This document shows, in pieces, positions 4,966 through 44,869 of a stretch of 64,000 bases of DNA (position 1 is the stretch's first letter; each line of letters begins with the position of its first letter). The translations under genes and the position numbers were made by a program. The stretch is from positions 13,768,360-13,832,359 of the forward strand of contig NC_039368.1 in the NCBI RefSeq assembly GCF_003573695.1, written 5' to 3'. A model generated the notes under the pieces. That model worked only from the letters and a program-made list of their open reading frames with translations, was not told where the DNA came from and did not search any database. This stretch comes from Papaver somniferum. Lineage: Eukaryota; Streptophyta; Magnoliopsida; Ranunculales; Papaveraceae.

Positions 4966-5248
4966 CTCAATAAGAAAAAAAGAACGATTCTTTGGGGACT
5001 ACTCAAAAATGGAGGGGGACTACTTTGTGATAGGAATATCTACCCTATACTTATAAGGGGTATCCTAAAGTGTGGAAATAACTAATCTACCCTTAACCTA
5101 ATTAAAAAATCAAAACTAATCTAATAAATATATATATATATATATACCTAATCTAAATCATTAACAAAACAAAATCAAAATCAAAATTATAACAAATCCA
5201 TTACTTTTAATTTTTCACAAATCTGTTACTATTAGAGGGTTTATTTTG
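4966..5248. other. Gene-free AT-rich stretch left of the MULE
   Basis: No gene. It contains a (AT)n run at about 5129-5147 and starts with a GGGGACTACT / GGGGGACTACTT doublet (about 4996-5025) that could be the end of an older MULE-like element into which the 17.8-kb element inserted. The last nine bases (5240-5248, TTTATTTTG) are the left target duplication of that element. Confidence 0.4.
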
Positions 5249-5295
5249 AACACACGATTGGGGGATATCAAAACTAATTGGGGGATATAGCTACA
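5249..5295 (+). repeat. Left terminal inverted repeat of the MULE
   Basis: AACACACGATTGGGGGATAT followed by CAAAACTAATTGGGGGATAT. The reversed right end (23028 to about 22985) reads TAACGCGCAATGGGGGGATA and then an AAACTAATTGG block. A GGGGGATAT word occurs twice in each arm. Diverged but clearly homologous to each other and to both ends of the element at 44513-45716. Confidence 0.8.
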
Positions 5296-5804
5296 TGACA
5301 AAATAGGGATCCAAATATCAAATCTGGGTTACCCCTTATGTAATTATTTTTTAAATTTCTAATCTAGCCCTCACTAATCAGGTTTAGTGGTTAATAATAA
5401 TTAGTAAAATCTTAAGTATTTGGAGGATAGATTAGTGTGTATTTTTATTTGAATTTATGTGAGGGAGGTGAGAGTAGAAGGAAGGAAAAATATTTTTGGG
5501 TGAAATTCTTTTTGTGAAAACGGAAGATGATTGTGAGGAGAGAATTGCAGCTGCTGAATCTTTAGCTCAACTACAACAACAATCATATATTCAATATTCG
5601 ATTAATGATAACAACTCACAATTGGAATTATATGATGAACCAACACCCTTGGATCATGATTTTCGTGAGCATCAAGTGTTTTTTGAAGAACCAACCCAAC
5701 AAAGTAAACATGTTCAACATACAAGCAACCCCAACACACAGGTAATGCTGCTAAGGGTCGAAAATTTGTTGTTGTTTTTTTAAACCGCCATTTTTTCTCT
5801 GAAA

Positions 5805-6490
5805 AAGCTTGGTACCGGCATACCCGTAGTATGAATACCACGCCGACACCACCAGAACCGGCACAGTATTCATACTATTTCCATGCCAGCAATAGATTTC
5901 CCCAATTCTGAAACAATTTCCGGCGTGGTCTTCAACCAAAAAAACCATGCCGGCACGAAGTTAACTTTTTACCTACCACCGAATATTCCATGGAATATCC
6001 AAATCGGCATGGTTCCATCCTAACTTTCCATGCCGGTACCACCAATAAAACATCCAGGAGTTAGAGAGTTTTGAACTTAAATACCGGCGTCTTATACAAA
6101 TTATCAAGCACGCCGGAACCTATTACCGGCATGGTAAAAAAATTACGGACCAAGCCGGCACGAGATACCGGCTTGGAATCTTTCATATCTATAATGCCGG
6201 TACCACTAGAAAAACATCCAAAAGTTAGTCACTTTGGTACCGGCGTTGTTTTAGAAGTATCTGGAATGCCGGCTCCGGTTTCCGGCGTCGGACCTTATGT
6301 AAAGAGAATGCCGGTATTACCAATTACGGCATCGATGTTCAAGAAAATACAATGCCGGTACTGTTTAAAATTAGGTGCTCTTTTTCAAGTGCATTTCCAG
6401 AAAGCCAGAACATTTTTCGAGATTGCCGGCACTAATTTCCGGCTTAGGTCGTTTTTGCTGAACTGCCGTCGAGCATGCCGGAAATAGTAC
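5805..6490. repeat. CCGG-centred motif array, left (transposase intron 1)
   Basis: More than a dozen copies of a loose unit such as ATGCCGGTA, TACCGGCAT or ATGCCGGC, in both orientations, irregularly spaced by about 15-60 bases. The array fills most of the inferred first intron (5742-6552) of the transposase gene. The same words recur in arrays at 18110-18265, 19140-19370 and 21838-22410, and in the derivative at 44870-45405, so the motif belongs to this MULE family. It may bind transposase or an accessory protein, or be a methylation target; neither is shown. Confidence 0.75.
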
Positions 6491-7048
6491 CCGACATAGT
6501 ACTTTAATATTTTTTTTGAACTAATTCAATTTTCTTTTCATTCATTCCTTAGATTGTGACATACATTGATCCAACAAATTCTAAACCGCTTGGTCCGAAT
6601 ACATCCGAATACTATAAAAAGCCTCCGGTATGTTACCAAACAATAATTTTCACCTAGTTTTTAGAACTTTATATGGGGATTTCTTGTAATGAACCTTATA
6701 ATATTCCATTGTTGTCCTTATGTAGGGAATTAAATCTCCACAGGAAGCGATTGCTTGGGCAAAAGAGACGGCTCTTAAGAATATGTGTGTGTTGGTGAGG
6801 AATACCCAACGTTCAGATAATCGTTTTGAGATGGTTTGCGAGAGAAGTGGGAAATACAAGGAGAAGAATATTCATAATAGAAAGGGTTATGTATATCCAA
6901 AGAAGACCAATAGGGTATACAAGACTCATACGAGGAAGGATAATTGCCCCTTCAAGCTTGTATTCTATTTAAGAGACAAAGAAAAGGAATGGGATTGTGC
7001 GGTGTGGTTTGTCCGTCATAACCATCGGGATCCGAAAGATTTTGTTGG

Positions 7049-8544
7049 TGATGTTTTTTCAAAAGTTGTTGTAGATAGTGGTAAAAGGAGTTCTTTTCGA
7101 ACTTGTGAAGGGAATAATTTTTTTTAGATTTAAATAATTTAGAAATGTAGAAAATTCAATTAACAAGTGATATAAATTTTATGGAGAAAATAGGGGTGAT
7201 GATTCCACCATTCAACAATATTTATGTAGTTTTATTTATTTTTTATTATGCAAATTTAATAATTGTTTTGATTCTAACTATTGCCAAAAGCAGATTCTCA
7301 AAATATCAAAGATTAATCGCAAGCATAATACATCAAGAGTATAAAACTAAGCATGTATTATCAAGAGAAAATATATTTGATTAATAAAAATCATTTAAAT
7401 CATTTATTTTCAGTGCAATTAATCATATATAAATACTGCAAAAATTAATCAAATAAAAATTACCACATAAATATTGCGAGAAAGGCTTCCTCCGTCACCC
7501 CTGGGATTGGGTTTAGCTACTCATGATGAAAAACCTCTCAAAATATTTCATTGATGCTCAAAAGTTGATTACAATGAAGAGAAATGTCAAAAAAATCAAT
7601 ATTCGACCGTACTTTGCAACACACAGGAAGCGTCAGGGAAGAACGATACAAATGAAGTGCTGTAAGCACTGTTTCTAAGTCGCGGGAAAGGAATTGGAAA
7701 TTGTCGCAGTTAAGCGACACCTTTCAACGACTTTCCTGGAGCGTATTTTGTTCTTCGTCTTCAACTACACCAGCAGAACTCTTCTCTTCTCTGCGTGATT
7801 TTCTTTTAATTCTCTCGACTCCTAAACTTTCCCCAAAGACTCTCCAAACTTGCTAAACTCTTTATCCTTGTATTTATAGTGTTTTAGAACAAAAATATCC
7901 GACCATAACACCGTATAATCTCCCATTAATCCCGTCATTGCTCGCTGCCCATATTTAACAATAATTTCAATTTTTGGCTTCTACACACGTTAGATTTGAT
8001 CCTGCACGCTCTAGTTAGCCTTCTCCACGTCTCAGCACTCTTTCAACGCTAGTAGAACTTCTCCATGCACACAAGAACTTCAATTTTGCTCGTGTTACAG
8101 TACACGTGCTCTGTTTTGGGTGTGTGAATCATCACGCGTTTTCCAGCCAATTCCGATCGAAGCCACTGCCCAAAATGTGTTCCTTAATCTATATCACATC
8201 TCTCTATGAAATTTCAGCCATTGAATCGACCCGTAACCCCTTCATTTTTGTGATCAAACTTCTGCCAGTTGAGAATTTCATTTCCTGCCAAAAAACAGTT
8301 TTCAAACGAAGAAGAAAGGGTGTCCCCCTATCCTGAACTGGGGTGAGAATAGCAGGTGTCCACTGAAGTGCCCCTTAACCGATAGTGAGATTCCGAATAA
8401 CAATTGTCCTTCAAGGGTGCCCCGGGCAACTTTTCGAGCCGAATTTTCCAAAAATGTTTATTTCCTAAAAATACAAACACAATATTAGTACAAAAATAGA
8501 GTTCCAACAATACGGACAAATTAGACACAAAAATGCGTCTATCA
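7049..8544 (-). repeat. 3' LTR of the nested element
   Basis: 1496 bp, minus orientation, ending TGATAGACGC at its outer polypurine side (8544) and paired with 14166-15673. A TTTATAGTG box near 7873 in CTTGTATTTATAGTG is the complement strand of nothing obvious, so no promoter is claimed. Differences from the partner are scattered substitutions and small indels. Confidence 0.9.
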
Positions 8545-8560
8545 AATACCCCCAAACTTA
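8545..8560 (-). other. Polypurine tract of the nested element
   Basis: Read on the minus strand as AAGTTTGGGGGTATT directly before the 3' LTR start TGATAGACGC. The same tract style occurs at 2150-2167. Confidence 0.7.
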
Positions 8561-9866
8561 TTATTTGCTAGTCCTCGAGCAAATTTATTCTAGAAAGGAA
8601 AATCATTTGAACCCTTAGGTGGACCTAGTTGCGGAGTGTTGTCTCCGGAGGGTTTACCAGAGGTGTACCCACAAAACCTTTACTCCAGACCCTAACTATC
8701 TACGCAAAATCTTGGAAAGCACTAAAGAACCTCCTTGGTTGGCATACTTATTAATTATATGAGGAAGTACCCTGATGCGAAATTCCAATTACTGTACACG
8801 AGTTTTCACTCAAGCATACTAAAATTCATATAAGTGACAGAGCTCTACTAAGATAGTTTCAGGATGGACATCATACTCGGAGTCAGACTAATCACATGAA
8901 AATATTAAGAAGATGGAAAAAGAAAAATGTAGATGGTTGAAAAGTGAACGGTGTTTCCCATATCTGTCTGAAGGCCTCTGCCAAGGTGAACCTAACCTAA
9001 ATGACTGAGGTACCGGTCTGACTAATATTAACACACTGGCATATACAAGGGAACTAGTGGTCAATAATCCTAACTCTAGGTCAACACAACTGGCATATAC
9101 AAGGGTACCAGTGGTCGACTTTATTAAACACACATTTATTTAAGAAATAACAACATGATTGGACCTGTGGACCCAAGCGCATGTTTCTTGTCAGCAGATT
9201 ACAAGGTAATTCCCGTGGATCCTGCATTCCACGCTTGTTTAGGCGACGGAGACAGGGAGAACACACACATATTTATATCCAAGTGTTAGTATTTATTCCA
9301 ATTGATCTACTGGTCTGGTCTTTTTTTTTTTTTTTTTGTTGAAAAGGTAACTCAGTCACTCTATTTCACCCTAGCAAAGGTAACAACTTGAATCGTGTGC
9401 CCCACCAAATCACTTGAAATAAAAGAAAACTGAAAATAGAAAGTGAAAAGGACTCGACGAGATATGGCGAAACTATCATGTTATTTATAACACCTGAGCT
9501 CTGTGCTTTTATGAATAGACTCTATAGATGTTTCCATCTAGTCAGATTGGTTCCTCAACTCCTAAAACAAAAATATTTCCATCCACTTAGATTAGTTAGT
9601 GTTATCCTTAATACGCATAAATTTCTAGGCTCTGGAGTTTATTTATTGCAACTAAAAGATTTTCCCATACCCCCAAACTTAAATCTAACATTGTCCTCAA
9701 TGTTTCCAATGATAAAATTAACAGCATGAACGAGGAGAAATTGTTACCACTTGAAGCAAAAAGGGTTGAGGAAAGATATTACCGTGTTGCGTGAGATTAG
9801 GTTACCTCCCAAGAAGTGCTAAGTTTAAAGTCTTCATCCAGACATCAAATACCTCAAAAAGGATCT
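8561..9866 (-). other. Non-coding 3' internal region of the nested element
   Basis: No gene. It contains a short direct duplication around CTGGCATATACAAGGG (about 9036 and 9090), a T17 run near 9320 and a second purine tract next to the ACATTGAGGACAATG block (reversed, about 9670-9710). Confidence 0.5.
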
Positions 9867-11660
9867 TCACCTTCTAAAATCATATACCAATAGCCGAAAA
9901 AGTTGTGGGTCCATAATACCAAATAGAGCTAACACGAATATGAGACAACTGCACTGGCTCAGAAAAATGAACAGAAGGAGCACATCCTCATCTAAGGTTT
10001 CTTGCAAGACAACCGGATCTATCCAGAGCCTCCAGTTGGGCTTCATAAGAGCGTCTTGAAAAATAGATTCATCCGAAAAACGGGTTTCTAATATATGGAT
10101 TTCCTCCTGAACAGTATCAGGCGGATCAGGTTGTGGAGTCTGAATAGACTCAAGCGATACCTCAGATGCACTAGGCTTGAGTCCCAAGTTAGGGACTTCT
10201 ACTGGGGATAATTGACAATCTCTACCCCCAAATTTAGGGTTTTGGGTGTCCCTATATAAACTAGTCACAATATTCCTAATTTCTAGACCATCCGGTTCCT
10301 GAAAAAGTTCAATTGCTTTCTCTGAGTTATAATCAGGTGGTTCATCCTCTAAATTATTTTGAGGTATACTAGCTATAGGACTTATATGTTTCATATCCTC
10401 TATGGTCATCCCTAGAGTTTCCTTATTGTGTTGAAGCACGGTTACTGGCCTAATCTCATGATCACCATCCAAATCGGAAGTTATAGGCAAAATCTCAGAT
10501 GAGCCTACAAATGCATAATTGGGGTCCAAGTTAGGAGAATCTATAGGCTCTTCGAAATAAGGGCTTAAGGTAGATTCGGTAGCTAGTAATGGTTCAAACC
10601 TAGATTTCCATCTATCGGTATCTAACATAGGAATAGAATCCAACAGAGCATTTACTTGTTCAATGTTGCTATCATCGTCGAAATCCATGCTAAAACGGGC
10701 TAGACAACTCTCTAATGGATCTTCCGATTCGGTGTTTGGTACAGACTTCGGAACTAAGGTTCCTATCATGTTGACCTCTTCAATGCACGTGTCATCTAGC
10801 TCAGAGGGTAGCTTACTAATATTAAAAATGTTCAGCTCAATAGTCATATTACCAAAAGACAAATTCATAATACCATTTCGACAGTTAATGATCGCATTGG
10901 ATGTAGCTAAAAACGGGCGACCTAAAATCACTGGTATTTGGTTCTCTGGGTCAGGGATAGGTTGGGTATCTAGGATAACAAAATCCACCGGATATATAAA
11001 CTTGTCGACCTCTATGAGAACATCCTCGATCACACCACGAGGAATTTTAACGGACCTATCAGCTAACTGAAGTGTCATCTGTGTAGGTTTCATCTCACCA
11101 AGTCCTAGCTTAAGGTACACATGGTATGGCAGTAAGTTCACACTGGCTCCTAAGTCAAGCAACGCTTTCTCATCACGGTACTTACCTATTGTACAAGAAA
11201 TGGTAGGGGACCCTGGGTCTTTATACTTAGGAGTAGTGGTATTCTGAATAATATAACTCACATGACTAGCTATGAAGGCTTTCTTCTGGACACTGAGCTT
11301 ACGCTTTCGCGTACACAAGTCCTTAAGGAACTTGGGATAAGAGGTAATCTGCCTAATTGCATCTAATAATGGAAGGTTGATATTAACCTGCTTAAAAACC
11401 TCCAATATATCGTTAAAGTTGGACTCCCTCTTAGTCGGAACTAGCAACTGGTGGAACGGGGCTCTGGGAACAAAGCCGGGCTCATCAGGACCCTCATTGG
11501 TCTCTTTGGAGACTCTATCAGTCTCCTCATTTTCTGGCTCATAAGGGTGAACTACAGCATGTTCACTATTAGGCATGGCAACCTTATTGTCAACTTTCTT
11601 TCCACTCCTAAGGGTTGTAATAGAGTTCACATGATTGTACGATTTCTCTGCTTTAGGATT
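9867..11660 (-). CDS. Retroelement aspartic protease plus acidic tail (pol remnant)
   Basis: The frame is open from above 11630 (the first codon of the longest frame is GTG, so it is not an independent start) to a stop at 9867. Near the N terminus is ITTLRSGKKVD, a hallmark of Tat/Athila-type Gag-Pol junctions. The retropepsin motif ALLDLGASVNLLP lies at about residues 155-170 and the C-terminal ILGRPFLATSNAII block about 80 residues later. DLGA replaces the usual DSGA/DTGA, as is common in this clade. The frame then runs into an Asp/Glu/Pro-rich tail and ends near DPQLFRLLVY. It should mature Gag. Polymerase domains are missing, and the tail follows the protease directly. Confidence 0.8.
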   Translation of the reverse strand, partial: NPKAEKSYNHVNSITTLRSGKKVDNKVAMPNSEHAVVHPYEPENEETDRVSKETNEGPDEPGFVPRAPFHQLLVPTKRESNFNDILEVFKQVNINLPLLDAIRQITSYPKFLKDLCTRKRKLSVQKKAFIASHVSYIIQNTTTPKYKDPGSPTISCTIGKYRDEKALLDLGASVNLLPYHVYLKLGLGEMKPTQMTLQLADRSVKIPRGVIEDVLIEVDKFIYPVDFVILDTQPIPDPENQIPVILGRPFLATSNAIINCRNGIMNLSFGNMTIELNIFNISKLPSELDDTCIEEVNMIGTLVPKSVPNTESEDPLESCLARFSMDFDDDSNIEQVNALLDSIPMLDTDRWKSRFEPLLATESTLSPYFEEPIDSPNLDPNYAFVGSSEILPITSDLDGDHEIRPVTVLQHNKETLGMTIEDMKHISPIASIPQNNLEDEPPDYNSEKAIELFQEPDGLEIRNIVTSLYRDTQNPKFGGRDCQLSPVEVPNLGLKPSASEVSLESIQTPQPDPPDTVQEEIHILETRFSDESIFQDALMKPNWRLWIDPVVLQETLDEDVLLLFIFLSQCSCLIFVLALFGIMDPQLFRLLVYDFRR

Positions 11661-13078
11661 GGGTTGGTTTGACTAGGAAACTTACCTTTTTCCCTCAAAG
11701 ACTCATTTATATGACTAACCAGGGTTTTCAACTCGGAAATAGCCTGAGAGTTAGCCTGACCTATTCTCTTATTTTCTTCTATACCTTGAGCAACAGATTT
11801 CTGAAACTCCATAGTGTGACGAGTTAACAAAGCAAGAGACTCTTCTAAAATCATAATCTTCTTATCCGAAGGGTTCTGAAACTGTGTCGGGGCTGAAGGA
11901 TTCTTAGGATAGCCAAAACCTGGGGGAGCTTGAGAGTTACTAGACTGACCTTGATTCTGGCCCTTAGACCAAGAAAGGTTGGGATGGTTTCTCCATCCAG
12001 GGTTATAGGTTTCTGAATAAGGGTCAAACTTCTGACGGTTATCGAATCTAGTGTTGTTATAAAGAGCATTGGCTTGCTCTTCAACAATATGGTCTTCCAA
12101 AAAAGCCCCAATTCTACCACTAGTACCACTAGAATGACCTAATTCCAACGCTTCTAACCTTTTGTCTATGGCTGCTATTTTAGCATCTGACTCATAGGAT
12201 CCTTCTACCCTATTGACATTTCCTCTACTTAGAAGAATTGTTTTCAGGGGTTCCCTATTATTTTCCCATTGTTGGGTCTTATTGGCGATTTCATTCAAAA
12301 ATGTCATCGCCTCATCAACAGTTTTATTCTCAAACCCACCTGTGCATAAGGACTCAACCATGGTCGTTGTTGAATAGTCTAAACCCTCGTAGAGGATCTG
12401 AACTAACCTAACCTTCTCTAAACCATGATGAGGACATTGAGAAATTAAGTCATTGAACCTTTCTAAATACCTATATAAAGATTCTCCCTCTTGTTGAGCA
12501 AAAGTACAAATTTGTGTCCTAATAGACGATGTTTTGTGCCTTGGGAACAACTTATGTATAAGGGCAGATGTAAGTTGTTCATAGGTTTCAATTGACTCAG
12601 AATCCAAACTATACAGCCAAGATTTGGCTTTATCTTTTAAGGAAAAGGGGAATAACCTAAGTTTTAGTGCATCATCACTAAGGTTTTTAATTTTCAGAGT
12701 ACTACATACTTCCTCAAATTCCCTAACATGAAAATAGGGGTTCTCATTCTCTTTTCCTAAAAAGGTTGGGAGCATCTGTAAAGTCTCAGGTTTGAGTTCA
12801 TAATTTGCCTCGATTTCAGCTAACTTGATACAAGACGGACGAGAGGTCCTAGTTGGGTTCAATAAAGCTTTTAAAGTTGCCATTTCTGGCACTACCAAAG
12901 GACTAGGAGAAATTTCTTCACAAAGACGCAGATTCTCAAAACTGAAGTTTCCAAAAACAGGGCTCTCAAAAGAACAATCTTCGAGCTCCCTGCTTATATC
13001 AGAAGAACTACTAGGTTTTTCGCTAATCAATCGACCTAGAGTATCTCTTTTCCAACCCCTATTAACAAAATCGGGCAT
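11627..13078 (-). CDS. Gag polyprotein of the nested LTR element
   Basis: 483 aa from a real ATG at 13078. A retrotransposon Gag domain covers about residues 95-270, including LPTFLGKENENPYFHVREFE, then FPFSLKDKAKSWLYSL and FFPRHKT-like residues as LFPRHKTSS; this domain forms the particle capsid. A Gln/Asn/Pro-rich region near residues 340-400 follows. No CCHC zinc knuckle is seen. The stop at 11627 overlaps the next frame. Near 11650 the Tat/Athila-style junction continues in another frame, so either a frameshift (programmed or mutational) joins Gag to protease or the copy is damaged there. Confidence 0.88.
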   Translation of the reverse strand: MPDFVNRGWKRDTLGRLISEKPSSSSDISRELEDCSFESPVFGNFSFENLRLCEEISPSPLVVPEMATLKALLNPTRTSRPSCIKLAEIEANYELKPETLQMLPTFLGKENENPYFHVREFEEVCSTLKIKNLSDDALKLRLFPFSLKDKAKSWLYSLDSESIETYEQLTSALIHKLFPRHKTSSIRTQICTFAQQEGESLYRYLERFNDLISQCPHHGLEKVRLVQILYEGLDYSTTTMVESLCTGGFENKTVDEAMTFLNEIANKTQQWENNREPLKTILLSRGNVNRVEGSYESDAKIAAIDKRLEALELGHSSGTSGRIGAFLEDHIVEEQANALYNNTRFDNRQKFDPYSETYNPGWRNHPNLSWSKGQNQGQSSNSQAPPGFGYPKNPSAPTQFQNPSDKKIMILEESLALLTRHTMEFQKSVAQGIEENKRIGQANSQAISELKTLVSHINESLREKGKFPSQTNPILKQRNRTIM

Positions 13079-14141
13079 ACACTAAAAAAAATCAAAAATA
13101 AATAAAAATCCTAACAGGAAGGTTCTAGCAATCACACAGCAGGCTCACTCGACTTTACCACAGCAAACCTAGAGATTTCTAGCAAACAACAAGCATGATG
13201 GATCACTTAGATTGTTTCTAGACTAGCTTTTATATCTCGAAAGGGAATTCATTACAATTTAAGAAAACCCCTCTGGAATCAATCCGAGTCAAAGTAAGTT
13301 GAATCGAGGCGAGGGAAGCTCAGTGGAGCTTTGATACCCAAGGCCTCACTGCATTACAAGGCGGCGCAGTCACGCATTCAACTCACAGAAACTGTCATGA
13401 ACTTTGAAGTATGCTAAACGAATAACCAATATCCTTCGAAATTTTTTCCTAACAAGCTCGATACCCTATAAGTCTCTTTCTAATCAGATTTTAAAGCTTG
13501 GGTTCGCGTTAGGTTTTGTTCTTCTAAAGCGGGCAAGAAGGGAGCGGTGATGAAATCCGTACCCTTATCTTGTTTAGGCCAGTCCTTGCCCTTTACTAGG
13601 AAAATAAAGACAGTACAAATTCGTCCTCAATCAATGATCACCTTAAGGAATACAGTAACTCGCTTACAGGAGATTCGCGAGTGTTTCGATTGGACTTACC
13701 TCCCGTACCAGACGGGGGATGAACCGTTGTCGTCGACTCGGGCCACGACTCCTATGCCGTGTGCGAACCCGAGGGGCCGAGGTGATATTGTAATCACCGT
13801 CCTTCCCTGCACACAGTTTGTATTTAACTACCCTTCCGTATGGTTTAAAAAAAATAATAATAAAGTCCAAGAGTCCAGTCCAAAGTCCAAATAAAGTAAA
13901 GTGCAAAAGAAAAAGAAAAATAACCTAAAAAAAATATATAAAAATCTCTCTTCTTTTTTTTCTCTCTTTTCTATATATAAAACAAAAAAAAAATATTCCT
14001 CTTTCGCTCCTTTCGCTTTAAGCTTTTCCTTCCAAGGTCCTTAGTACTCCACTTCGAACCTGCAAATCAAAGACAAAAAGAAACGTAAAAAGGAAAAAAA
14101 ATAATAAACCTAAAAAAAAAAAAAATCTACCTAAGCACAGG
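13079..14141 (-). other. 5' untranslated internal region of the nested element
   Basis: Sequence between primer site and gag start. It is A/T-run rich near 13900-14130. No gene is recognised; short frames here lack any family similarity. Confidence 0.5.
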
Positions 14142-14159
14142 TCCGCATCGGCGGCGCCA
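14142..14159 (-). other. Primer binding site of the nested element
   Basis: On the minus strand TGGCGCCGCCGATGCGGA, six bases inside the 5' LTR. The first eight bases match the TGGCGCCG primer site used by Athila/Tat-type elements (tRNA-Asp class in published families); the rest diverges. Confidence 0.75.
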
Positions 14160-14165
14160 AAAATT

Positions 14166-15673
14166 TGTTGTATTTTCAAAAGTTGTTGTAGATAGTGGTA
14201 AAAGGGGTTCTTTTCGAACTTGTGAAGGGAATAATTTTTTTTAGATTTAAATAATTTAGAAATGTAGAAAATTCAATTAACAAGTGATATAAATTTTATG
14301 GAGAAAATAGGGGTGATGATTCCACCATTCAACAATATTTATGTAGTTTTATTTATTTTTCATTATGCAAATTTAATAATTGTTTTGATTCTAACTATTG
14401 CCAAAAGCAGATTCTCAAAATATCAAAGATTAATCGCAAGCATAACACATCAAGAGTATAAAACTAAGCATGTATTATCAAAAGAAAATATATTTGATTA
14501 ATAAAAATCATTTAAATCATTTATTTTCAATGCAATTAATCATATATAAATACTGCAAAAATTAATCAAATAAAAATTACCACATAAATATTGCGATAAA
14601 GGATTCCTCCGTCACCCCTGGGATTGGGTTTAGCTACTCATGATGAAAAACCTCTCAAAATATTTCATTGATGCTCAAAAGTTGATTACAATGAAGAGAA
14701 ATGTCAAAAAAATCAATATTCTTCCGTACTTTGCAACACACAGGAAGCGTCAGGGAAGAACGATACAAATGAAGTGCTGTAAGCACTGTTTCTAAGTCGC
14801 GGGAAAGGAATTGGAAATTGTCGCAGTTAAGCGACACCTTTCAACGACTTTCCTGGATCGTATTTTGTTCTTCGTCTTCAACTACACCAGCAGAACTCTT
14901 CTCTTCTCTGCGTGATTTTCTTTTAATTCTCTCGACTCCTAAACTTTCCCCAAAGACTCTCCAAACTTGCTAAACTCTTTAGCCTTGTATTTATAGTGTT
15001 TTAGAACAAAAATATCCGACCATAACACCGTATAATCTCCCATTAATCACGTCATTGCTCGCTGCCCATATTTAACAATAATTTCCATTTTTGGCTTCTA
15101 CACACGTTAGATTTGATCCTGCACGCTCTAGTTAGCCTTCTCCATGTCTCAGCACTCTTTCAATGCTAGTAGAACTTCTCCATGCACACAAGAACTTCAA
15201 TTTTGCTCGTGTTAAGGTACACGTGCTCTGTTTTGGGTGTGTGAATCATCACGCGTTTTCCAGCCAATTCCGATCGAACCCACTGCCCAAAATGTGTTCC
15301 TTAACCTATATCACATCTCTTTATCAAATTTCAGCCATTGAATCGACCCGTAACCCCTTCATTTTTGTGATCAAACTTCTGCCAGTTGAGAATTTCATTT
15401 CCCGCCAAAAAACAGTTTTCAAACGAAGAAGAAAGGGTGTCCCCCTATCCTGAAATGGGGTGCGAATATCAGGTGTCCACTGAGGTGCCCCTTAACCGAT
15501 AGTGAGAGTCCGAATAACAATTGTCCTTTAAGGGTGCCCCGGGCAACTTTTCGAGCCGAATTTTCCAAAAATGTTTATTTCCTAAAAATACATAAAAACA
15601 CAATATTAGTAAAAAATAGAGTTCCAACAATACGGACATTGAGGACAAATTAGACACAAAAATGCGTCTATCC
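14166..15673 (-). repeat. 5' LTR of the nested element
   Basis: 1508 bp. The inner edge is TGTTGTATTTTC on the plus strand; the outer edge is GCGTCTATCC, against GCGTCTATCA in the other LTR, so the terminal base pair is mutated. GTTGG (15674-15678) follows immediately as the target duplication. Confidence 0.9.
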
Positions 15674-17414
15674 GTTGGTCACTCCCTAATTGCGAAGCTA
15701 AAACCTCATGAATTCGAGGATGTAAAGATAATGACCAAAGCATGTATCAAACCAAGAGTGATTCTCAGAGGCTTCAAGGAAAAGGATGATCAGAACGTTC
15801 CTTATCTAAGTACAATCTATAGCGCACAAGCAACCATTAGAAGGGTGGAATGGTAAGGGAGGACCGTTATGCAAGAATTTGAGAAGATAGTTTGGGATCA
15901 CAACTACACGCGTATCATTAAAAGAGGACCGGACAACAAACCCCTTCAAATATTCATTGCGCATCCTTTGCTTTCACAATTGGCTCATACATGTGGTGGT
16001 GTTCTTATGATGGATTGCACCTACAAGACAAACAAATACAACATGTTGTTTTTCAACATCGTGGGGAAAACATCGGACAAGGTGTCATTTACATTGGCTT
16101 GGTGTTTAATGGAAAACGAGAGGGATTACAATTATCATTGGGCATTACGAAAATTGAAATTATTGTTCCGGAAAATTAATTTCTGAGGGTCATCATAACC
16201 GATCAAGATGACGCACTAATGAGTGCTATATCCGATGTATTTCCGGATGCACAAAATTTCCTATGTACGTATACGTCAAAATGTGACAAAACATTGTCAT
16301 GCTTTGTTTGTACCCTCTAAGGCGGATATTAAGAAGGGAATGGTTGCTCAACTAGAGGAAGATGTTCGCAAGAAGAAACTATCACCCAAAGAAGAAGAAG
16401 ATGAAAGAGGAAAGATTAAAGAGCGAGTGGACAAAGAATACGATGAAAATCATAAAAAGTGATTGGAATTTCTAAAGGATTGGGAGAAAGTTTATTGGTC
16501 TCTTACCGAGGATATATATGAAAATAGATTGAACATGTTTATTGCAAAATATAACGAAGTGTATCCAAGTGCCGTCTCATATTGTCGGGATAAATTGTTG
16601 GATAAGTACAAGGAAAAATTTGTGCGTGCATGGACAAATCGGTATAGACACCACGGGAATGAAGCAACTAGTATAGAGGAGTCATCTCATGGGAGATTTA
16701 AAGATCTTATCCAGTCCGGCCAAGGAAACGTGGTTACGGTCACCGAGGCATTTGGACAATACTTTAAGGCTAATATCGATAGGATCAAGAAGGCTTTTGA
16801 GAAAATCTCAATCGAAAGGATGACATCACATTTTCGATATGGTAAATTGCTCCAAGGAATAGAATTCAACGTCTCGCAATGGGCAATAAAACATATGATT
16901 AAACAAATGGAAAAAGAGATAAACTGCGGGAAACGGGTGATGTGTGTATTTGTCCCGACATGTCTTCGTTGGGACTTCCGTGTCGTCATATGCTTGTGAA
17001 GTATGAAGAAGTGATACCTATTGAGGTTATAGATCCGTTTTGGAAGCAACTATCTTTCGACCCTCCCCCTACGGAAGCTCCCGGACAATCACTATGGGAT
17101 ACAAATGAAGCAAATGAATTCTATGAAGCTTACTCACGTGGCAACTCGACATTAAATAATATACAGTTTCTATGCCGGAGATATAACAGTATTGAATTAT
17201 ACGATGTAAGCCGGAACTATAATTTATTTCATATGTAATCCTTGTCGCAGGAAGCACGAATGCACTTAGCACGTGCATCAAGCCTTTAAACCAATTGGTG
17301 ACCCAAGTGGACGAGTTATAGTCTCGTGAGGGTTTACATAGAGATGTACCCACAAAACCTTACAAAAAACTACCCTAAAAACCTAACCAAGTACCACTAA
17401 ACCTATCAATCTTC

Positions 17415-17901
17415 TTAAGAAGAATTCGTCTCCGATTCACCTAGTTGGTGGTACTCCGTGACTTTGCTTACAATGTGGTTCATGTTGGCATCAAACATGA
17501 ATGCTTCTCCCTTTTCCTATAAGTAACGCGTTTTCACGGCTTCATGCTACAAAAACAACACAAAACCTTAGTTTGTTACATAAAATTTGAAAAAAAATGG
17601 TTTGTGTCGAATTAATCATAAAGATACTTACAAGTTGTTGAGGAGACAATCTATTGCGGGTAGCATGCTCGATCCGGTGTTTCATTTTTAGATACTCAAC
17701 CACCACATTTAAGATGATGTCGTGTCGTTGCTCGATTTGTTGAGCAGTTCTCCCTTTCGGGTTACCGTAATCGTGAATAAATTTGTTAAAAATCTTCAAC
17801 CACATGGAATCCCGCGTGCTGTTATCTACAGTTGAAGGACGAGTTTCGGCGTACCATGCTTGGGTGATTGCTAAATCTTCCTCGGAATCGAACGATGCCA
17901 T
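17415..17901 (-). pseudogene. Trihelix/SANT-like DNA-binding protein encoded by the MULE
   Basis: Exon 1, 17901-17632, is 90 codons starting with a real ATG and closing on a GTAAGT donor. Exon 2, 17546-17415, ends in TAA. The intron is phase 0. Exon 1 shows SEEDLAITQAWYAETRP, then MWLKIFNKFIHDYG and TAQQIEQRHDIIL: the spacing of the three conserved aromatic/hydrophobic helices in the MYB/SANT-like proteins encoded beside plant PIF/Harbinger and other transposases. It probably binds DNA and may target the transposase; that role is inferred. Exon 2 has one in-frame TAG after KTRYL, so the copy is damaged. It converges on the transposase gene and diverges from the zinc-finger gene. Confidence 0.7.
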
Positions 17902-18109
17902 TTGTTGTATGTGGGATTAGCTACTATATATACTAATCTATTTATAGATGATTATTCTAGGGTTTAGGGTTTCTAAGTTAAGAGGCTCAAGGAGATATAT
18001 AAGAACACACGAGTTTTGGGCTTTTGGGTCCAAGTATTAGCTCTCCTTATATAGAGAAAAACCTCAACGACTAGTTTTTTTGAAATCACCCAAACACCGT
18101 CATACAAAT

Positions 18110-18265
18110 AAATGTGACATAGAATGTCGGCACCCAGTTCCGGTAAAGTTTATCGTTATATGTCCATGCCGGTACAAAGGAATTTCTTCACAGTGAAATA
18201 TGCAACTATCACCGGAATGGTTTAACAACAAGGTTCAACGCCGGTACTAGATGCCGGCATTAAAT
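18110..18265. repeat. CCGG motif array in the divergent promoter region
   Basis: Copies of ATGCCGGTA-like units between the start of the trihelix-like gene (17901) and the start of the GRF gene (18478). The position suits a shared regulatory or transposase-binding region; this is inferred from position only. Confidence 0.65.
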
Positions 18266-18477
18266 ATATAATTGCGACCATGTCGTTATTTGTGAATTTC
18301 AAAAAAAACGGCTAGTTTTTTTTAAAAATAAGACCGTTGGAGATTCATTTCTATATAATACCCCCCATATCTTTGGAAAAATCTACACAAAACACCCACC
18401 AAATAACAAAAAACCTTCTCTCAAGAAAGCAAGCACCAAAAAATAGATCAATCAAGCACGGTTAAAGTTCACAAGCG

Positions 18478-19008
18478 ATGGGAGATTCATCATCAAGCTC
18501 TATTTGCAAAGTAAGTAGATTGAACATTACTAACAATTTACGGATAGTTAAAATCTTCACTACTATGACGCATAACTGATACAATGTTCTCTTACAGAAT
18601 CATGATTGTCGGTGTCAAATTTGCAAGTCACCTTCTCATCTAGCCATGGAATGTCCTTTTATTTATTCAAAGTGTAGAAGCTGTGATGGGACACGCCGGT
18701 TTTGGATTGCAAAAACTGATGATGCTGAAAATGGAAGAATGTTTCTAAGGTGTTTGAATTACCCAAAGTGCGATGAGTTTCAATGGTTTGACAAAGCTGT
18801 TGAACTAGCAGAATCAAGAGAAAACCACAAGGGCCAAGGCACGCCTATTGATGGGTGTGATGGGTGTTATATGAAGGGAAAGGAATATGTTGAAAGGTAA
18901 GATGAACCAATGAAGATTGTCCTTGACACCCCCATTCCAGACGATGTCTTCGAAGATATTTGCGAAAGGCTCAAAGGATCCGCAATTGTTGAAAAAGGAT
19001 GGAAATAG
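18478..19008 (+). pseudogene. CCHC zinc knuckle plus GRF zinc-finger protein encoded by the MULE
   Basis: Exon 1, 18478-18510, starts with a true ATG (11 codons); after a GTAAGT donor, exon 2 runs from 18598, phase 0. Exon 2 begins with a perfect CX2CX4HX4C knuckle (CQICKSPSHLAMEC) and then a GRF-type finger: CRSC, the GRMFLRC element, and C near DEFQWFD. GRF fingers bind single-stranded or structured nucleic acid in TOP3, APE2 and NEIL3. A TAA at 18898-18900 interrupts the frame, which continues for 35 more codons to a TAG at 19006-19008; I read the TAA as a nonsense mutation, although it could be the natural end. Probable nucleic-acid-binding accessory factor. Confidence 0.75.
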
Positions 19009-19139
19009 ATTATGAGATCATCTTTAACCAAAGTTACTCCATTACCATGTTTTAGTATGTTTTAATTTAAAGTTTGAAATCTAATGTAATAGATTATCTA
19101 GGAATGAAATAAATAGAGAATTCGTAACCTATTTATAAC

Positions 19140-19370
19140 AAATACCGGCATACTATATTTATCAAAATCCAATGCCGGAATTATGCAAAACTATGCAAGA
19201 GTAAGAAAATAAGGTTTCCGGTGTAGATCCAATACTTTTTCTGATGCTAGAACTACCTGTAATCTACACAGAAACTTGTTCATTTTTATCCATTGTGCCC
19301 GGAATGGTTTTGGAGTAAACAGTTCCATGTCGGCATTGAAATTAAATTGCTTTGAATGCCGGAACCAAAC
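19140..19370. repeat. CCGG motif array between the zinc-finger and PMD genes
   Basis: ACCGGCAT, ATGCCGGAA and related words between the 3' ends of two convergent genes, so this is not a promoter position. The motif is therefore spread through the element's non-coding DNA. Confidence 0.6.
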
Positions 19371-19431
19371 ATTTTACAGAGATCTAAACATGTTTAACAT
19401 AAACCAAACAACTGAATCGTGCTTAGAATCA

Positions 19432-22400
19432 TCACTTGGTCTTTTGCTTCTTGGAAACGGGCACCTTCCTTGTTTCCCCAAACAAAGTTCTTTCTCTTGG
19501 GTCTTCAATTTTATCAAGCTTTTCCATGACTTCCTTCATATCTTCAAGGGATAGCACCTCTCCTTCCTCGTACTTGCAACCTAACATCTTCTTCAACTTG
19601 CCAAGACGACGCCGCTAGTTTCATACATACAACACATAATTAGTATATATATGCTAATATAAAATTATATGTACATTAAACGAGTAAGCAATTAACAATA
19701 CTTACTAGCAATCCGACGGTCTTATTAAGTTGGGTCATCGTAGGTGGTGCCTCTATAGGAATTAGAACGGGAGGGTTTTTCTGGGGTGGAACTTCGACGT
19801 CTTCCGGGCGCACGACAAAAGGATGTGACCGTTCCAAGTAATTAGCAATGTAAGTTGGGTTGGCTTCATCACCGTTGTTCACAAGCTCCCAATTAGTAGC
19901 ATCTACCAAACGACGTGGTTCCCTACCCCTCCAATGTGTTGGTTATGGAGTTGGATCATACTCTACCCTCAACCTTGTGGAACTTTCCATGGACACAGAA
20001 AGGTCAAGCTGATACCTTTCAGTAGAGGATGTCATGTAGCAGGGTAATTGCTTGTATCCAAGTTGCCGCATCACACGTCGAGGATCAGCCATAACGTATC
20101 CCTTTGGGTGGAACAAAGGCCCGTTGTAAAATGCAACGTTATGAGACCTCAAATATTGGCGGTTTTCTCTAGACTCCTTGTAAGGGTCGAACACAACATC
20201 TTTGGTAGTCATCGCGTCCAGATACAATCTCATGTTTGTCAGTCGATGATCGTTACCGGGCTTCGGATGACTGTTGAACTGGTATCTCTTGGCTCTAGGC
20301 TCCTCGGGGTCATCAACGGGAATAATCTTCACGAAGGGGTTGTATTTGAACAATGTTGGGAAATGTTCATAATCCCACACCTATACCAATGTGAAATGAT
20401 ACATATAAAAATCAGTAAATTTTGTGAAAAGGGTACACGTGAACAATATCAATAAGAACATAAGTTTAAAAACAAAATTACCTGGAGTAGAGTGAAATTC
20501 CCGACAAATTAGTTTGTAACCGCCAAAGAGGCCCTTCTCATCTCCGTCATCAAATGTGCCATTACCACGATGCCCCAAGAATAACTAAAGACATCTTCCA
20601 ACGGATCCAAGTATTGAAGGTAGTTTGCACTAACCCTGTTTCCACTAGTGTCAGAGAATATCCTAGTGCCCAAGATGAATAACAGGTACGCATCAGCTGT
20701 ATAACGAATCTGTGCGGGGTAACATCCATCCTTCAAACTTATTTCCTTTGAGTTTTGAAACTTCTCCTTAAGCAGAGTCAGCTTGATGATATTTGTCCTA
20801 CTAAGCTTAGATACGTAGAAGCTTTCCACAGAAGTTTTGTAGTCCCAACTAAGCAACTTTTTGGTAAGCTCGTGCAACTTCGTCCATTATATCTTAAAAG
20901 AATGATTATCTCCTTCTGCAATTGATTTGCCGGTAACACTCAAGCCTAGGATGTTCTGAGCATCATCAAGGATCAAGGCCATCTCGTCAAACGGGATGTG
21001 CATGGTATCTGATTCACCATGATACCTTTCGACGAAGCAATTGACTGTCACAATATATGGTTTCACATAATTTTCAACCAAATGATATAGACCAGAATCC
21101 TTAACTATTGCTTGAACATCTTCATGCTCCTTAGACAAATCCCAATGAGCCGCGACTTGGTTTCGGCAAACACGCACAGCCTTCGTATGATCCTACAATT
21201 AAGAGATAATATGATTAAGAGATTATGCATAAATACAAAACAATACATATGCGCGATATAGAAATTCTTACATAGGTTTGATATATAGTACGATCCCACG
21301 AGTGCTTGTATCCAAATAGATACCCCGGATCATAAGAAGTTGCGCCCCAAATTCTACCACGATCAAGGTCGGGCATCATGTCATCAACATGAGGAAGGTG
21401 CGAACCTTTAACTTTTACTTTTCCTTTGCCTTTGCCTTTCCCCTTGCCTTCTGTGGGTTGTTGACTTGGACCACCTTGTTCCTCTACTCCTTAGCATTGG
21501 ATTGCTAATTGAGTTGGTTCAATCTCATTATCTTCCTTTTCACTCTCCTCTTGCTCATCTCGCTCATCTTTCTCATCTTCCTCCTCAACATCTCCGGTTT
21601 TACTACGATCACGACCACTCTCCCAAATTTCCCCTCTTGTATTAGCACCCAAATGTTTTTTGTTTTTCCTTCGAGGAGGTAGAGATTGAGGAGTATCAAG
21701 ACCATCCTTCCTTCTTTTCTTAGTGACAACATCTTTAGACATTCCTTTGTTAGCCTCCTTTGTTTTAGCTTACTTTGCTTTAGATCTATTTCAAAAGAAG
21801 CACGAAATAAATATAAGACAACTAACTTTAATTTCTAATACCGGAATAGATAAACCACATTACGGCATAGAATCATAAATACCGGCATACTGAAAAAAAG
21901 TATCGAACATGCCGGGATACAATACCGACATAGTATATCAAAACGATTACATGCCGGGAGAAGCTGCCGGCATTGATAAATAAGTTTCTAGGATGTCGGT
22001 TTACTATAGGAAATTCCTGGATAAGAAAACTCAAGTACCGACAGCTACGTAAAATAAAAATAAATTGAAATAAAATTGTTCAGGATGCCGGTAGTAGTTC
22101 TAAAGTTTCTGGATACAAAAACTCCAGTACCGGCATGGAATCTAACATACAATGTACGCCGGAACAACTAACAAAATCATAGGGTTTTATGTTGATTAGA
22201 AGCTTGCTACCGGAGTACTCATAAAAGTTCAAGTAAACTCCGGTACTAGGTTCAAAAATGGTGTTCATCCTAAATTCAATGCTGAAACTAAGTTCTGGTG
22301 CTGTCTTCAACCTAAATTGAATGCCGGAACGGGATACCGGTGTGGTCTTCATCCTAGATTGATTGACGGTACTAGTTTCCGGTGTGGTCTTCATACTAAA

Positions 22401-22673
22401 ATGAGTGCCGGAATTTCTGAAACTCAACTGTTTCACTTAGGATTTCGCGATTTCGACCTAAACCCATTGCTACAAATCGATTGAAACACTAATTAAACAG
22501 TTTTAAATGACTTACCTTCTCACAGAAGCCATATTTCTGAGTAGTTGATCGTTCGATAACTCTTGTTCTTCGTTTTCTTGCTCTTGAGCAATCAAAGCAA
22601 GCCTTTTCTTTAATTTCTGTTGAGCAATCGATTTTGATTTCGATTGGGCATCTGATTTGTTTCGTGGAGGCAT
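19432..22673 (-). pseudogene. Plant mobile domain (PMD, MAIL1-like) protein encoded by the MULE
   Basis: Five exons with phase-0 introns: 22673-22524 (ATG; GTGAGA donor), 21757-21272, 21192-20482, 20380-19706 and 19614-19432, together about 734 codons. The N-terminal exons are Lys/Glu-rich with a GKGKGKGKGK tract. Exon 3 has the PMD signature: AAHWDLSKEH, SGLYHLVENY, CFVERYHGESDTMHIPFDEM and LGLSVTGK, then a Y-SWG block; exon 4 continues with VWDYEHFPTLF. PMD proteins MAIN and MAIL1 act in gene and transposon silencing, and PMD domains are known in transposons. Four in-frame TAA codons (21491, 20887, 20509, 19943) inactivate this copy, with no frameshift seen. Confidence 0.82.
21838..22412. 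repeat. CCGG motif array, right (PMD intron 1)
   Basis: Many ATGCCGG, ACCGGCAT and related units in both orientations inside the inferred PMD first intron (21758-22523). It mirrors the left array, which is also in a first intron. Confidence 0.75.
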
Positions 22674-22984
22674 TCTTATGGGTTGGTTTTAATCGACGAA
22701 GAAATTTTTGGTTCAACGATTAATCGTAGAGTATATGAAGAACGATGAAGAAGAGGAGAGGAAGATGGAAGAAAAAAAAGATTCAAAACCTAACCCTAAG
22801 TATCGAGTATGCCGGCACAAATCAAATGGGGGATAGCTGATTTGGTTTTTTGATTTTTAAGTTTTTAATTTAGTGGGAGGGTATAACAGTCTTTTCATAA
22901 TGTTTTTTAATTAATATAAGGGTGTTTCAGTATTTTCGCCCCAAAAAACACCCCTTAGCAAACACCTTTGGTTGGGGGAAGTAA

Positions 22985-23028
22985 TTCATATCCACCAATT
23001 AGTTTCCATATCCCCCCATTGCGCGTTA
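22985..23028 (-). repeat. Right terminal inverted repeat of the MULE
   Basis: Reverse complement partner of 5249-5295. The next nine bases (23029-23037) are the right target duplication TTTATTTTC, one mismatch from the left copy. Confidence 0.8.
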
Positions 23029-23139
23029 TTTATTTTCTTCTCTTCTTTCCGCTTCATCGTCTCGATTAAAAAAAAAATTCCACAAACTCATTACTCAGAA
23101 AAAATGAGTAGTAATCATCAAAATGTGTTGAAAATGAAA

Positions 23140-23610
23140 GTTGCAGAGAGAAGTTCGGCTAGGAATTATGTGAAACAGTTTGTCGAACTAGACGAACTCA
23201 GCTTTAATGAATTTATTTTTTTTCAAAGAAAAGTTCGGTTACCTCGCAAAAAAAAAATCCTAGCCGAACTTTTAGTTCGGTTACGTCGCAACTTTTTTTC
23301 CTTTTTTTTCCCTAGTCGAACTTTTAGTTTGGTTATGTACTTACAACGCAATTTTTTTCTCCTAACCGAACTTTTCTCTGAAAACCTATGTATTGAGTTC
23401 GGTTACGTCGAATATTTTTTTTCGCGGCCGAACTTTTAGTTCGGTTACGTGGCAACTTTTTTTTCCTAGCCGAACTTTTCTCTGAAAGCAATAACTTCAT
23501 TAGAGCTGAGTTCGGCTACTTGTGTCTTCAGAACCATTAGCCGAACTACACTTGCAGATGAGTTCGGCTACCTGTTCTTCAGATGTCGTAGCCGAACTTT
23601 ATTTCCATGG
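23140..23610. repeat. TTCGG hairpin array
   Basis: A series of TAGCCGAACT and AGTTCGGTTA words, several arranged as CCGAACTTTTAGTTCGG, i.e. short perfect hairpins with 7-8 bp stems and small loops, at irregular spacing. It starts about 110 bases right of the MULE. The motif differs from the CCGG array. It may be the subterminal part of another, older DNA transposon that the MULE entered; termini for that element were not proven. Confidence 0.7.
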
Positions 23611-28534: not shown

Positions 28535-29235
28535 ACATCAATGCACTTGTAAACCGATTTCATTTAGAAATGGTTGTTGTTTATGCCCACAAAGACTGAT
28601 TTTCCTGGATGGGCATTCTGATTGGAGGAAATTGAACCAGAATCGGTTTACGTTAATGCCCACATAGCCCGATTCTAGTATGAAATTTTTCTGTGTTTTT
28701 TTTTTTAGAATCGGATTACAAGATCATTTTTATAAACCGATTCCTGTTATGTAATGTCAGGAATTGGTTTTTATACATGTATCGTGTAAACCGATTATAG
28801 TTAACCCATACACGATTTCATTTCGATTACAAATGAAAAATAAAATAGTTCCGTATGATTTTACCCAATTTGAAAACGAGTATAACTTTATACTCGGATT
28901 GAAAGCGAGTATAATTTCATACGCGAATTGAAAGCGAGTATAACATCTTAAATGATCTGAGATTGAGTATGAAGTCATACTCATTCTTAACTCGGGTATA
29001 AAATGAATTTTGATTTTATTTGATGTTTAACAACACATAATTCACAGATTAAAAAAAAAAAGTTTACCCACAATCGGTTTATGTTCATGCCAATATAAAC
29101 CGATTTTGGATAATCGGTTGATTTTCATGTCCATATGAACCGATTCTGGGTAGAAGCAAGTTTCGAAAAATCTATGTATGTTTTTGAGGTTACAATCGGT
29201 TGATACCAATGAAAACATATACCGATTCTGAGTTG
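28535..29235. repeat. AATCGGTTTA / TAAACCGATT array
   Basis: Repeated AATCGGTTTA-like words and their reverse complements (TAAACCGATT), paired across short spacers often containing CATGCC or ATGCCCA. The array lies between the LINE insertion and the right terminus, i.e. subterminal. Confidence 0.7.
28868..28998. repeat. GAGTATAA...ATACTC palindrome cluster
   Basis: Four imperfect units such as GAGTATAACTTTATACTC and GAGTATGAAGTCATACTC in tandem, each able to form a short hairpin. Embedded in the AATCGG array but of different sequence. Confidence 0.65.
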
Positions 29236-29483
29236 GTGTTCTTCAAAAAATTTCAAATTTTCAAATTTTTTCATGCTCAGATGATTCATTAACACACGTT
29301 AATTTCACATCTAATACTATATTTTATCACTAATCACCCGAATTAACACTAATTAATAAGGAGTAAATTTGTTATTAAAAAAATATTTGGTTAAGAGGCT
29401 TTTCATTTTACTTCAAAATATCTCTATTTTGTCACGTAGTGATATAGGCCCAAATTAATTCTTATAGATCCCAATTTAACCAG

Positions 29484-31390: not shown

Positions 31391-31933
31391 TTAAATGGCC
31401 AGAACGAAACCAGGCATGGACTTTCCAGCACTATTGGAAAGCGTACTCTGCCAAAGAGGCAAACAGTGAAATGACGATGATGGGGATGATGATCGAGAAG
31501 TGGACGGTGATGATGATGGTGAAGTGGACGGTGTAGATTGATTTGAGTTACCGAAACGAGTTACGGTAAGGGATGTATTAAAGTACTCCCTAACCTGAGT
31601 AATTATCCCATGATCAGAAACCGTCCAAGCATGAACCCAGAAGATTTGACGATTCTGATCACAACCTTCAACTAAGACTGTGGAACCAAGAGAAGCAATC
31701 GAAAGAGGAACGAATTGGAATTTAACGTTTTGATCAACACCAGTTAACAATCGCATCATATACTGGTGAGAAGGCGGGCCATGAAACCACCATTCAATGT
31801 CTGAATCAAGCAATCGCTGAACAGTTTCAACGTCTCGAATACTCAGGGCTTCATATAGGGCGCGTACGACCCTTATGTTAAAATCTGTTTCTGACTCCAG
31901 ACTAGATTCTTGGGAGTTAGCCAGTTCTGTCAG
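31391..31933 (-). CDS. WUN1/SAG20-like NTF2-fold protein, apparent CTG start
   Basis: About 180 aa. It closely follows the wound-induced protein 1 / senescence-associated family: VVRALYEALSIRDVETVQRL, EWWFHGPPSHQYMMRLLTG, EGCDQNRQIFWVHAWTV, ITQVREYFNTSLTVTR, a Ser/Pro/Thr-rich linker, and the conserved tail LPLWQSTLSN...GKS.PGFVLAI. The fold is SnoaL/NTF2-like; the biochemical role is unknown, and relatives are induced by wounding or senescence. No ATG occurs in any frame between the TATA box and the conserved domain. The frame reads CTG ACA GAA CTG GCT at 31933, where relatives would be expected to have Met, so translation may start at CTG or the start was lost. Single exon; no frameshift or stop. 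Confidence 0.85.
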   Translation of the reverse strand: MTELANSQESSLESETDFNIRVVRALYEALSIRDVETVQRLLDSDIEWWFHGPPSHQYMMRLLTGVDQNVKFQFVPLSIASLGSTVLVEGCDQNRQIFWVHAWTVSDHGIITQVREYFNTSLTVTRFGNSNQSTPSTSPSSSPSTSRSSSPSSSFHCLPLWQSTLSNSAGKSMPGFVLAI

Positions 31934-44817: not shown

Positions 44818-44869
44818 TGTTTTTTTTTTTCTTTCAATCCACCATTTTTACAACTGAAAAAGCTCGGTG

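Follow-up and report, generated by a model that had tools for sequence, protein, structure and literature searches.

The element at positions 5248-23028 of a 64,000-nucleotide stretch of Papaver somniferum DNA (contig NC_039368.1; hereafter the window) is an internally deleted, pseudogenised copy, here called copy A, of an abundant family of Mutator-like elements (MULEs). Full-length copies elsewhere in the poppy genome carry six genes, for a transposase, two PMD proteins (PMD1 and PMD2), a trihelix-like protein, a CCHC-GRF protein and a further protein named ORF-X, and their non-coding DNA holds arrays of a short motif with a CCGG core. By analogy, the best reading of this anatomy would be a self-activation system similar to that of the Arabidopsis VANDAL transposons but set in a PMD-bearing MULE, an interpretation that has about an even chance of being correct. 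The original prediction for this DNA had proposed four genes between shared ends (transposase, trihelix-like, CCHC-GRF and PMD), with the outer two pointing inward and the inner two divergent. Terminal repeats, domains and open reading frames (ORFs) bear out these genes, and exon strands their orientations; as a complete set, however, the four give way to six in six full-length copies, and the prediction was silent on the motif arrays, on a long terminal repeat (LTR) retrotransposon within the element and on a second copy (copy B) in the window.

Structure and copies of the MULE family

Copy A is bounded by 40-nt terminal inverted repeats (5249-5288 and 22988-23027; 83% complementary) with ends of the GAAC...GTTC type, the final base being A. 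The flanking duplication, first proposed as 9 bp, is an 8-bp target-site duplication (TTTATTTT, 5240-5247 and 23029-23036) with identical sides. Copy B has its own 8-bp duplication (GTTTTGAT, 44505-44512 and 45718-45725), and the same boundary rule applied to 10 other copies yielded five perfect duplications, two with one mismatch and three without a match, the left boundary being uncertain in two of these three. Assignment to the MULE superfamily follows from these terminal inverted repeats, from duplications within the 8-11 bp given for MULEs (PMC6446971; published papers are represented here and below by excerpts of their text), and from a MULE-type DDE transposase domain (PF10551, 6e-12, above the cut-off in a Pfam scan). 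As in PMD-bearing plant MULEs, a PMD gene lies antisense to the transposase within common ends. All four genes of copy A are disrupted by stops, frameshifts or the retrotransposon insertion, and the transposase C-terminus, PMD2, ORF-X and associated arrays are missing at an internal deletion junction.

Features of copies A and B (window positions, strand where applicable, description)
5240-5247: left target-site duplication, TTTATTTT, matching 23029-23036 exactly
5248-5288, plus: left terminal inverted repeat (GAACACACGATTGGGGGATAT...), from repeat and copy comparison
5510-5740, plus: transposase exon 1, start approximate, from ORF and copy comparison
5741-6552, plus: transposase intron 1, 9 ATGCCGG/CCGGCAT motifs, CpG observed/expected 1.21
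6553-6627, plus: transposase exon 2, 93% identical in copy e15
6726-7048, plus: transposase exon 3, first part, through one copy of the GTTGG duplication
7049-15673, minus: LTR retrotransposon inside the transposase exon, foreign to the transposon, with gag and aspartic protease
15679-17148, plus: remainder of transposase exon 3, carrying the MULE domain and a SWIM-like match, broken by stops and frameshifts and ending at the deletion junction
17147/17148: internal deletion junction, whose two sides are separated by about 6.6 kb in full-length copies
17440-17546, minus: trihelix-like gene exon 2, one stop
17632-17901, minus: trihelix-like gene exon 1
17902-18477: divergent promoter region common to trihelix and GRF, 3 motifs
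18478-18510, plus: CCHC-GRF gene exon 1
18598-19008, plus: CCHC-GRF gene exon 2, one stop
19009-19431: GRF-PMD1 3' region, 3 motifs
19432-19614, minus: PMD1 exon 5
19706-20380, minus: PMD1 exon 4
20482-21192, minus: PMD1 exon 3
21272-21785, minus: PMD1 exon 2, splicing consistent with database protein P0006
21786-22515, minus: PMD1 intron 1, 7 motifs and a 42-bp tandem array at 22259-22413
22516-22673, minus: PMD1 exon 1
22988-23028, minus: right terminal inverted repeat, from repeat and copy comparison
23029-23036: right target-site duplication, TTTATTTT
44513-45717, plus: copy B, 1.2-kb derivative of the same family, 9 motifs

Searching the 2.7-Gb genome (34,283 contigs) with the left 352 bases of the element returned 2,400 first-look candidates, and all of the best 40 that were scored, the window's own place among them, were at least 93% identical. 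The first 20 of the 39 other places were fetched with 10 kb each, and six (L011, L014, L015, L016, L018 and L024) were extended to full length; these were chosen for a visible PMD2 and further element sequence, not at random, and L012 and L020, also with PMD2, were left unextended. The six full-length copies span 15.3-16.2 kb and hold all six genes. Each was checked for 18 coding segments; one copy lacks trihelix exon 1, and in a different one PMD2 exon 1 could not be located. ORF-X, a gene for a protein of about 216 amino acids (9274-9921 in L018), is present in all six and had no Pfam match above the cut-off. Five further places (L017, L019, L025, L026 and L028) are deletion derivatives, in which an internal gap separates the two preserved sides of the element. 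The remainder are partial: PMD2, trihelix exon 2, GRF and part of PMD1 in L012; trihelix and PMD1 without GRF in L013; PMD2 and parts of GRF and PMD1 in L020; the transposase and part of PMD1 in L010; and, inside the 10 kb, the left part alone in L009, L021, L022, L023 and L027.

Motif arrays in the non-coding DNA

The heptamer ATGCCGG/CCGGCAT occurs 24 times in copy A and never in the 53,641 window bases outside both copies (nominal p 8e-21), ranking first in enrichment among the 4,451 7-mers that occur in copy A. Copy B, which was unused in motif discovery, has nine motifs against 0.06 in shuffles, although the shared ancestry of the two copies means that this test is not fully independent. 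The consensus of aligned GCCGG sites is ATGCCGGNA.

Nearly all of these motifs lie outside coding DNA. In copy A, 23 of the 24 lie outside exons, and the remaining one, at 17172, sits beyond the deletion junction in DNA that corresponds to the region between ORF-X and trihelix in full-length copies. Across the six full-length copies (40-53 motifs each), 272 of 275 motifs fall outside coding segments, though such segments cover 57-59% of each copy; the segments were delimited by ourselves, approximately for PMD2, and the copies are related, so that these are not 275 independent cases. Intronic clusters occupy the first intron of the transposase and of PMD1, and also that of PMD2 to the extent that its exons could be placed. 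Intergenic clusters separate transposase from PMD2, trihelix from GRF and GRF from PMD1, and are also found upstream of ORF-X. Array organization also differs between copies, with a 42-bp unit repeated 3.7 times in copy A and a 21-bp unit repeated 8.2 times in copy B (45231-45404), the latter holding some of the copy B motifs. As in VANDAL elements, one motif thus forms non-coding arrays that turn over between copies. In three annotated poppy PMD proteins (P0001, P0004 and P0005), parts of the sequence are translations of the array intron (E 6e-7, 6e-5 and 4e-9, with the intron alone as target). The exon-array-exon arrangement therefore extends to more diverged loci; judging from these matches, their gene models are probably wrong at the array intron.

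Functionless, selfish CpG-rich minisatellites of the family's introns would likewise appear as non-coding arrays that are tandem in places. However, the motif is found in both orientations and in about seven separate non-coding clusters, rather than as a single expanded unit. Methylated CpG decays with age, and the CpG observed/expected ratio is still 1.16-1.21 in the two introns of copy A that carry arrays and 1.03 in the copy B arrays, whereas the LTR retrotransposon and the flanks have 0.56-0.67. We consider the minisatellite explanation improbable.

The main rival to a self-activation system is that the arrays serve transposition alone, being bound by the transposase or a helper for end pairing and cutting, similar to the subterminal repeats of CACTA elements, with no part in countering silencing. 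CACTA subterminal repeats are bound by TnpA, which lends this explanation support. Moreover, the five internal-deletion derivatives retain 11-21 motifs and copy B nine, and 17 of the 24 copy A motifs lie within 1.3 kb of an end. Deletion derivatives retain end-proximal DNA in any case, however, and in full-length copies arrays also accompany promoters, introns and 3' regions of the interior, kilobases away from both ends. The two roles are also compatible, since the TnpA of Spm additionally activates Spm with DNA demethylation (PMC10398659). A role in transposition only is, on balance, unlikely, though it deserves to be taken seriously.

Accessory genes as part of the element

The original prediction proposed to test whether intact copies with the same ends keep all four genes. 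The six full-length copies do so (one without trihelix exon 1); the shorter copies with their own ends that lack the accessory genes are internal deletion derivatives. A second search used the GRF exon as query and gave 640 candidates, the best 40 of which, scored with the window's own place included, were all at least 95% identical. The 12 places fetched were the best ones beyond the copies already in the set; in nine of them, found by GRF similarity alone, trihelix exon 1 lies upstream of GRF in divergent orientation.

Ratios of nonsynonymous to synonymous change (dN/dS) were computed as pN/pS over all copy pairs, with a 95% codon bootstrap, among copies that are related and mostly decayed. 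The ratio was 0.48 for GRF (0.32-0.71, n = 20 copies) and 0.59 for trihelix (0.42-0.91, n = 16 copies), as compared to 0.87-1.27 in wrong frames of the two genes and 0.78-1.03 when the intergenic DNA that separates the genes was read in six frames. A smaller first set had given 0.55 for GRF (0.34-0.93, n = 8) and 0.43 for trihelix (0.23-0.76, n = 7). Both genes fall below their controls, which argues against chance cargo. Because the full-length copies keep the set, GRF and trihelix are paired at most of the places fetched and their dN/dS lies below 1, the accessory genes are part of the element, and chance cargo is rejected.

A related possibility, that trihelix, GRF, ORF-X and the PMD genes are fragments of captured host genes carried as passengers, has precedent in gene capture by MULEs, and capture of host PMD-C genes by MULEs has been inferred (Ikeda 2017, PMC5418596). 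Retention of the set in the full-length copies (which were not randomly chosen), the dN/dS of GRF and trihelix and the retained intron structure of GRF and PMD1 speak against it, leaving passengers a highly improbable explanation.

A proposed anti-silencing system

VANC21 binds a nine-base motif in the non-coding regions of VANDAL21 and causes methylation loss (Hosaka 2017, PMC5735166). This motif is often found in tandem repeats, introns and upstream regions, and is gained or lost between copies, and VANC proteins carry the domains DUF1985 and DUF287 (PMC5735166). Competition with RNA-directed methylation has been added to this picture, and the ends are noted as degenerate (Sasaki 2023, PMC10398659). 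The poppy PMD proteins may be linked to VANC, as sub-threshold matches to DUF1985 were obtained for 11 of 14 PMD proteins (window PMD1 and 10 of 13 poppy relatives; best 2.9e-4), at one identical stretch of the profile in the eight proteins with coordinates displayed. A PMD2 exon also matches DUF1985 below threshold (3.6e-4), and none of 10 shuffles of one PMD1 exon did so.

In the self-activation system we propose, arrays of the ATGCCGGNA-like motif would be bound by one or more proteins that the element encodes, which would keep its own promoters clear of host silencing, as VANC does in VANDAL. The best candidate binders would be the PMD proteins, with trihelix and GRF as possible DNA-binding or nucleic-acid-binding partners. 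With their CCGG core, the motif sites might themselves be targets of CG and CHG methylation. Gene-less copies such as copy B could be served in trans, because they retain the ends and arrays. Which protein binds the arrays, and that its binding counters silencing, we infer by analogy with VANDAL. The original suggestion that the accessory genes may counter host silencing stands in that they belong to the element, the silencing role itself being a reasonable inference. An anti-silencing role for MULE-captured PMDs was previously speculated upon, with the target unnamed (Ikeda 2017, PMC5418596).

Several results weigh against this reading. The DUF1985 matches score about 15-21 bits, compared to a Pfam cut-off of 35 bits; in the same scan, single PMD proteins matched the unrelated CDC45 (0.0012), Rpc31 (0.0057) and BUD22 (0.027), and no PMD protein matched DUF287 at E<=0.05. 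The poppy motif, ATGCCGG-like with a CCGG core, differs from the VANDAL motifs YAGTATTAY and AGTTGTCC and is no VANC's motif, and its concentration near the ends of copy A also fits a transposition role. The trihelix-like ORF, for its part, had no Pfam match, leaving the name without Pfam support. The check on selection proposed for each gene gave values below 1 for GRF and trihelix, but intervals include 1 for the transposase segments and C-terminus, PMD2, ORF-X and PMD1 exons 2 and 4. In the smaller set, intervals lying entirely under 1 were also obtained for controls, namely three wrong frames (0.49, 0.52 and 0.65; two of transposase, one of PMD2) and half of the six intron frames (0.68-0.73), and therefore the method alone can yield modestly low values. 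The dN/dS of PMD1 exon 3 in that set, 0.72 (0.55-0.98), is not distinguishable from such controls.

A bolder version of the proposed system would place PMD and the DUF1985 of VANC in one family of transposon-borne anti-silencing factors, the two PMD proteins, trihelix and GRF forming a self-addressed machine that targets the CCGG-core motif, and MAIN/MAIL1 being the domesticated host side; we regard this as rather unlikely. Anti-silencing by sequence-specific transposon proteins is best known from Arabidopsis VANDAL, with Spm and MuDR as further cases (PMC5735166, PMC10398659). The poppy family has similar anatomy in another plant, although its motif and its proteins, PMD among them, are other ones. 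Since the motif is defined and both the six candidate proteins and derivatives without genes are at hand, the role of PMD in transposons becomes directly testable.

Comparison with known systems

VANDAL elements (VANA/VANB/VANC; VANDAL21 'Hi') and the poppy family both combine a MULE transposase with accessory genes, short degenerate ends and one motif of about nine bases arrayed in introns, promoters and intergenic DNA and gained or lost between copies (PMC5735166, PMC10398659). They differ in that the poppy duplication is 8 bp, the VANDAL group being tabled as '9 bp and not indicated' (PMC6446971), that PMD stands in place of a full DUF1985/DUF287 VANC, and that trihelix, GRF and ORF-X have no counterpart in the excerpted VANDAL descriptions (PMC5735166, PMC10398659). 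Because of the 8-bp rather than 9-bp duplication and the lack of a DUF287 match, the poppy element was not assigned to VANDAL.

MUDR, MUDRAVI2 and MULE-Solanaceae_1 share with it a transposase with a SWIM finger and an antisense PMD gene (Dupeyron et al. 2019, PMC6446971). The transposase-PMD pairing is therefore not unusual, antisense PMD genes being tabled for several plant MULE groups in that paper. Unlike the PMD-bearing MULEs in its excerpts, the poppy family has two PMD genes, trihelix, CCHC-GRF, ORF-X and motif arrays, a combination not found in the literature searched. The word GRF is absent from the main text of PMC6446971, and no description of a MULE with trihelix and GRF was found in the open-licence literature, in which no search was aimed at trihelix or SANT.

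MAIN and MAIL1 of Arabidopsis have the same PMD domain but are host proteins. Genes whose promoters carry a certain motif, CATGCAGTTT in MORC1, depend on them for expression (PMC7156037, PMC9899485). This 'DOWN' motif is absent from both strands of the window; the poppy array motif CATGCCGG has CATGC.G alone in common with it, which by itself is no evidence. En/Spm (CACTA), an element of a superfamily other than MULE, is not known to carry a PMD. Its likeness to the proposed system lies in TnpA, an element-encoded protein whose action correlates with demethylation (PMC10398659).

Gene annotation and other features of the window

In the plus-strand transposase, a SWIM match (0.014) fell under its cut-off in the Pfam scan, as did a weak match of the first part of exon 3 to an AFT / WRKY-GCM1-type zinc finger (PF08731, 0.0085). 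Full-length transposases (L018, 3303-5168; L015; L014) have a long C-terminal extension with about five KKRGRPRK-like repeats, AT-hook-like by eye. A D-G-N-C ... N-H-F pattern there, OTU-protease-like by eye, serves as a lead only, with no OTU match in Pfam (E<=1) or PDB (E<=1).

The trihelix-like name follows the original prediction and what we presume, by eye, to be a resemblance to SANT-like proteins. Three helices were predicted at low confidence (pLDDT 64), and the one homologue, P0014 (83%), lies on a 1.2-kb contig. Against the PDB, the sequence gave a single match, to a ribosomal protein (E 0.65), and the fold gave none at E<=0.001. The terminal-repeat pattern and trihelix were also searched for in viral contigs, with no match. 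For the plus-strand GRF gene, CCHC and GRF signatures each occur once across the six frames of the window; the Pfam GRF match was weak (0.026), and the structure model was useless (pLDDT 38). A search of the protein database gave no GRF homologue, which is uninformative given that all 40 scored genome places are at least 95% identical. Minus-strand PMD1 has five exons with GT-AG introns and compatible phases; three exons match PF10536 (2e-9, 2.3e-8 and 6.5e-4), and the PMD profile matched nothing among PDB sequences at E<=0.1.

The retrotransposon is 8.6 kb long and flanked by a 5-bp duplication, GTTGG; its two LTRs agree at 97.9% of 1,495 aligned bases. The two long ORFs scanned encode gag (6e-18) and aspartic protease (1.2e-5), and checking the ORF list by eye revealed no reverse transcriptase ORF of at least 90 amino acids. 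A repeat of about 75-115 bases at 77-78% identity occurs at 17243-17356, 1985-2098 and 8606-8680, the last within the retrotransposon.

Copy B, which has no accessory gene, has the ends and motif arrays in common with copy A, together with a fragment of exon 1 and a 5' leader that is 82% identical over 239 bases. Its left junction (44493-44524) is straddled by a perfect inverted repeat of 10 bp (ATTGGCCGGT ... ACCGGCCAAT), so that the flank and the element end contain an arm each; this may represent an aberrant insertion or a later rearrangement.

Immediately next to the right end of copy A, the flank contains a cluster of AGTTCGG(C/T)TA-like repeats (23141-23500). On the minus strand at 29420-29475, 56 bases are 75% similar to the element's left end (E 0.002), perhaps a remnant of a related element, the surroundings having been viewed by eye at 28700-30100. 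ORFs at 40830-41873 and 51558-52253 encode a reverse transcriptase of the long interspersed nuclear element type (7.5e-29) and zf-RVT (1.5e-7), and minus-strand host-type genes at 31394-32050 and 48205-49950 encode a wound-induced WI12 protein and a DUF2985/PLAC8 protein.

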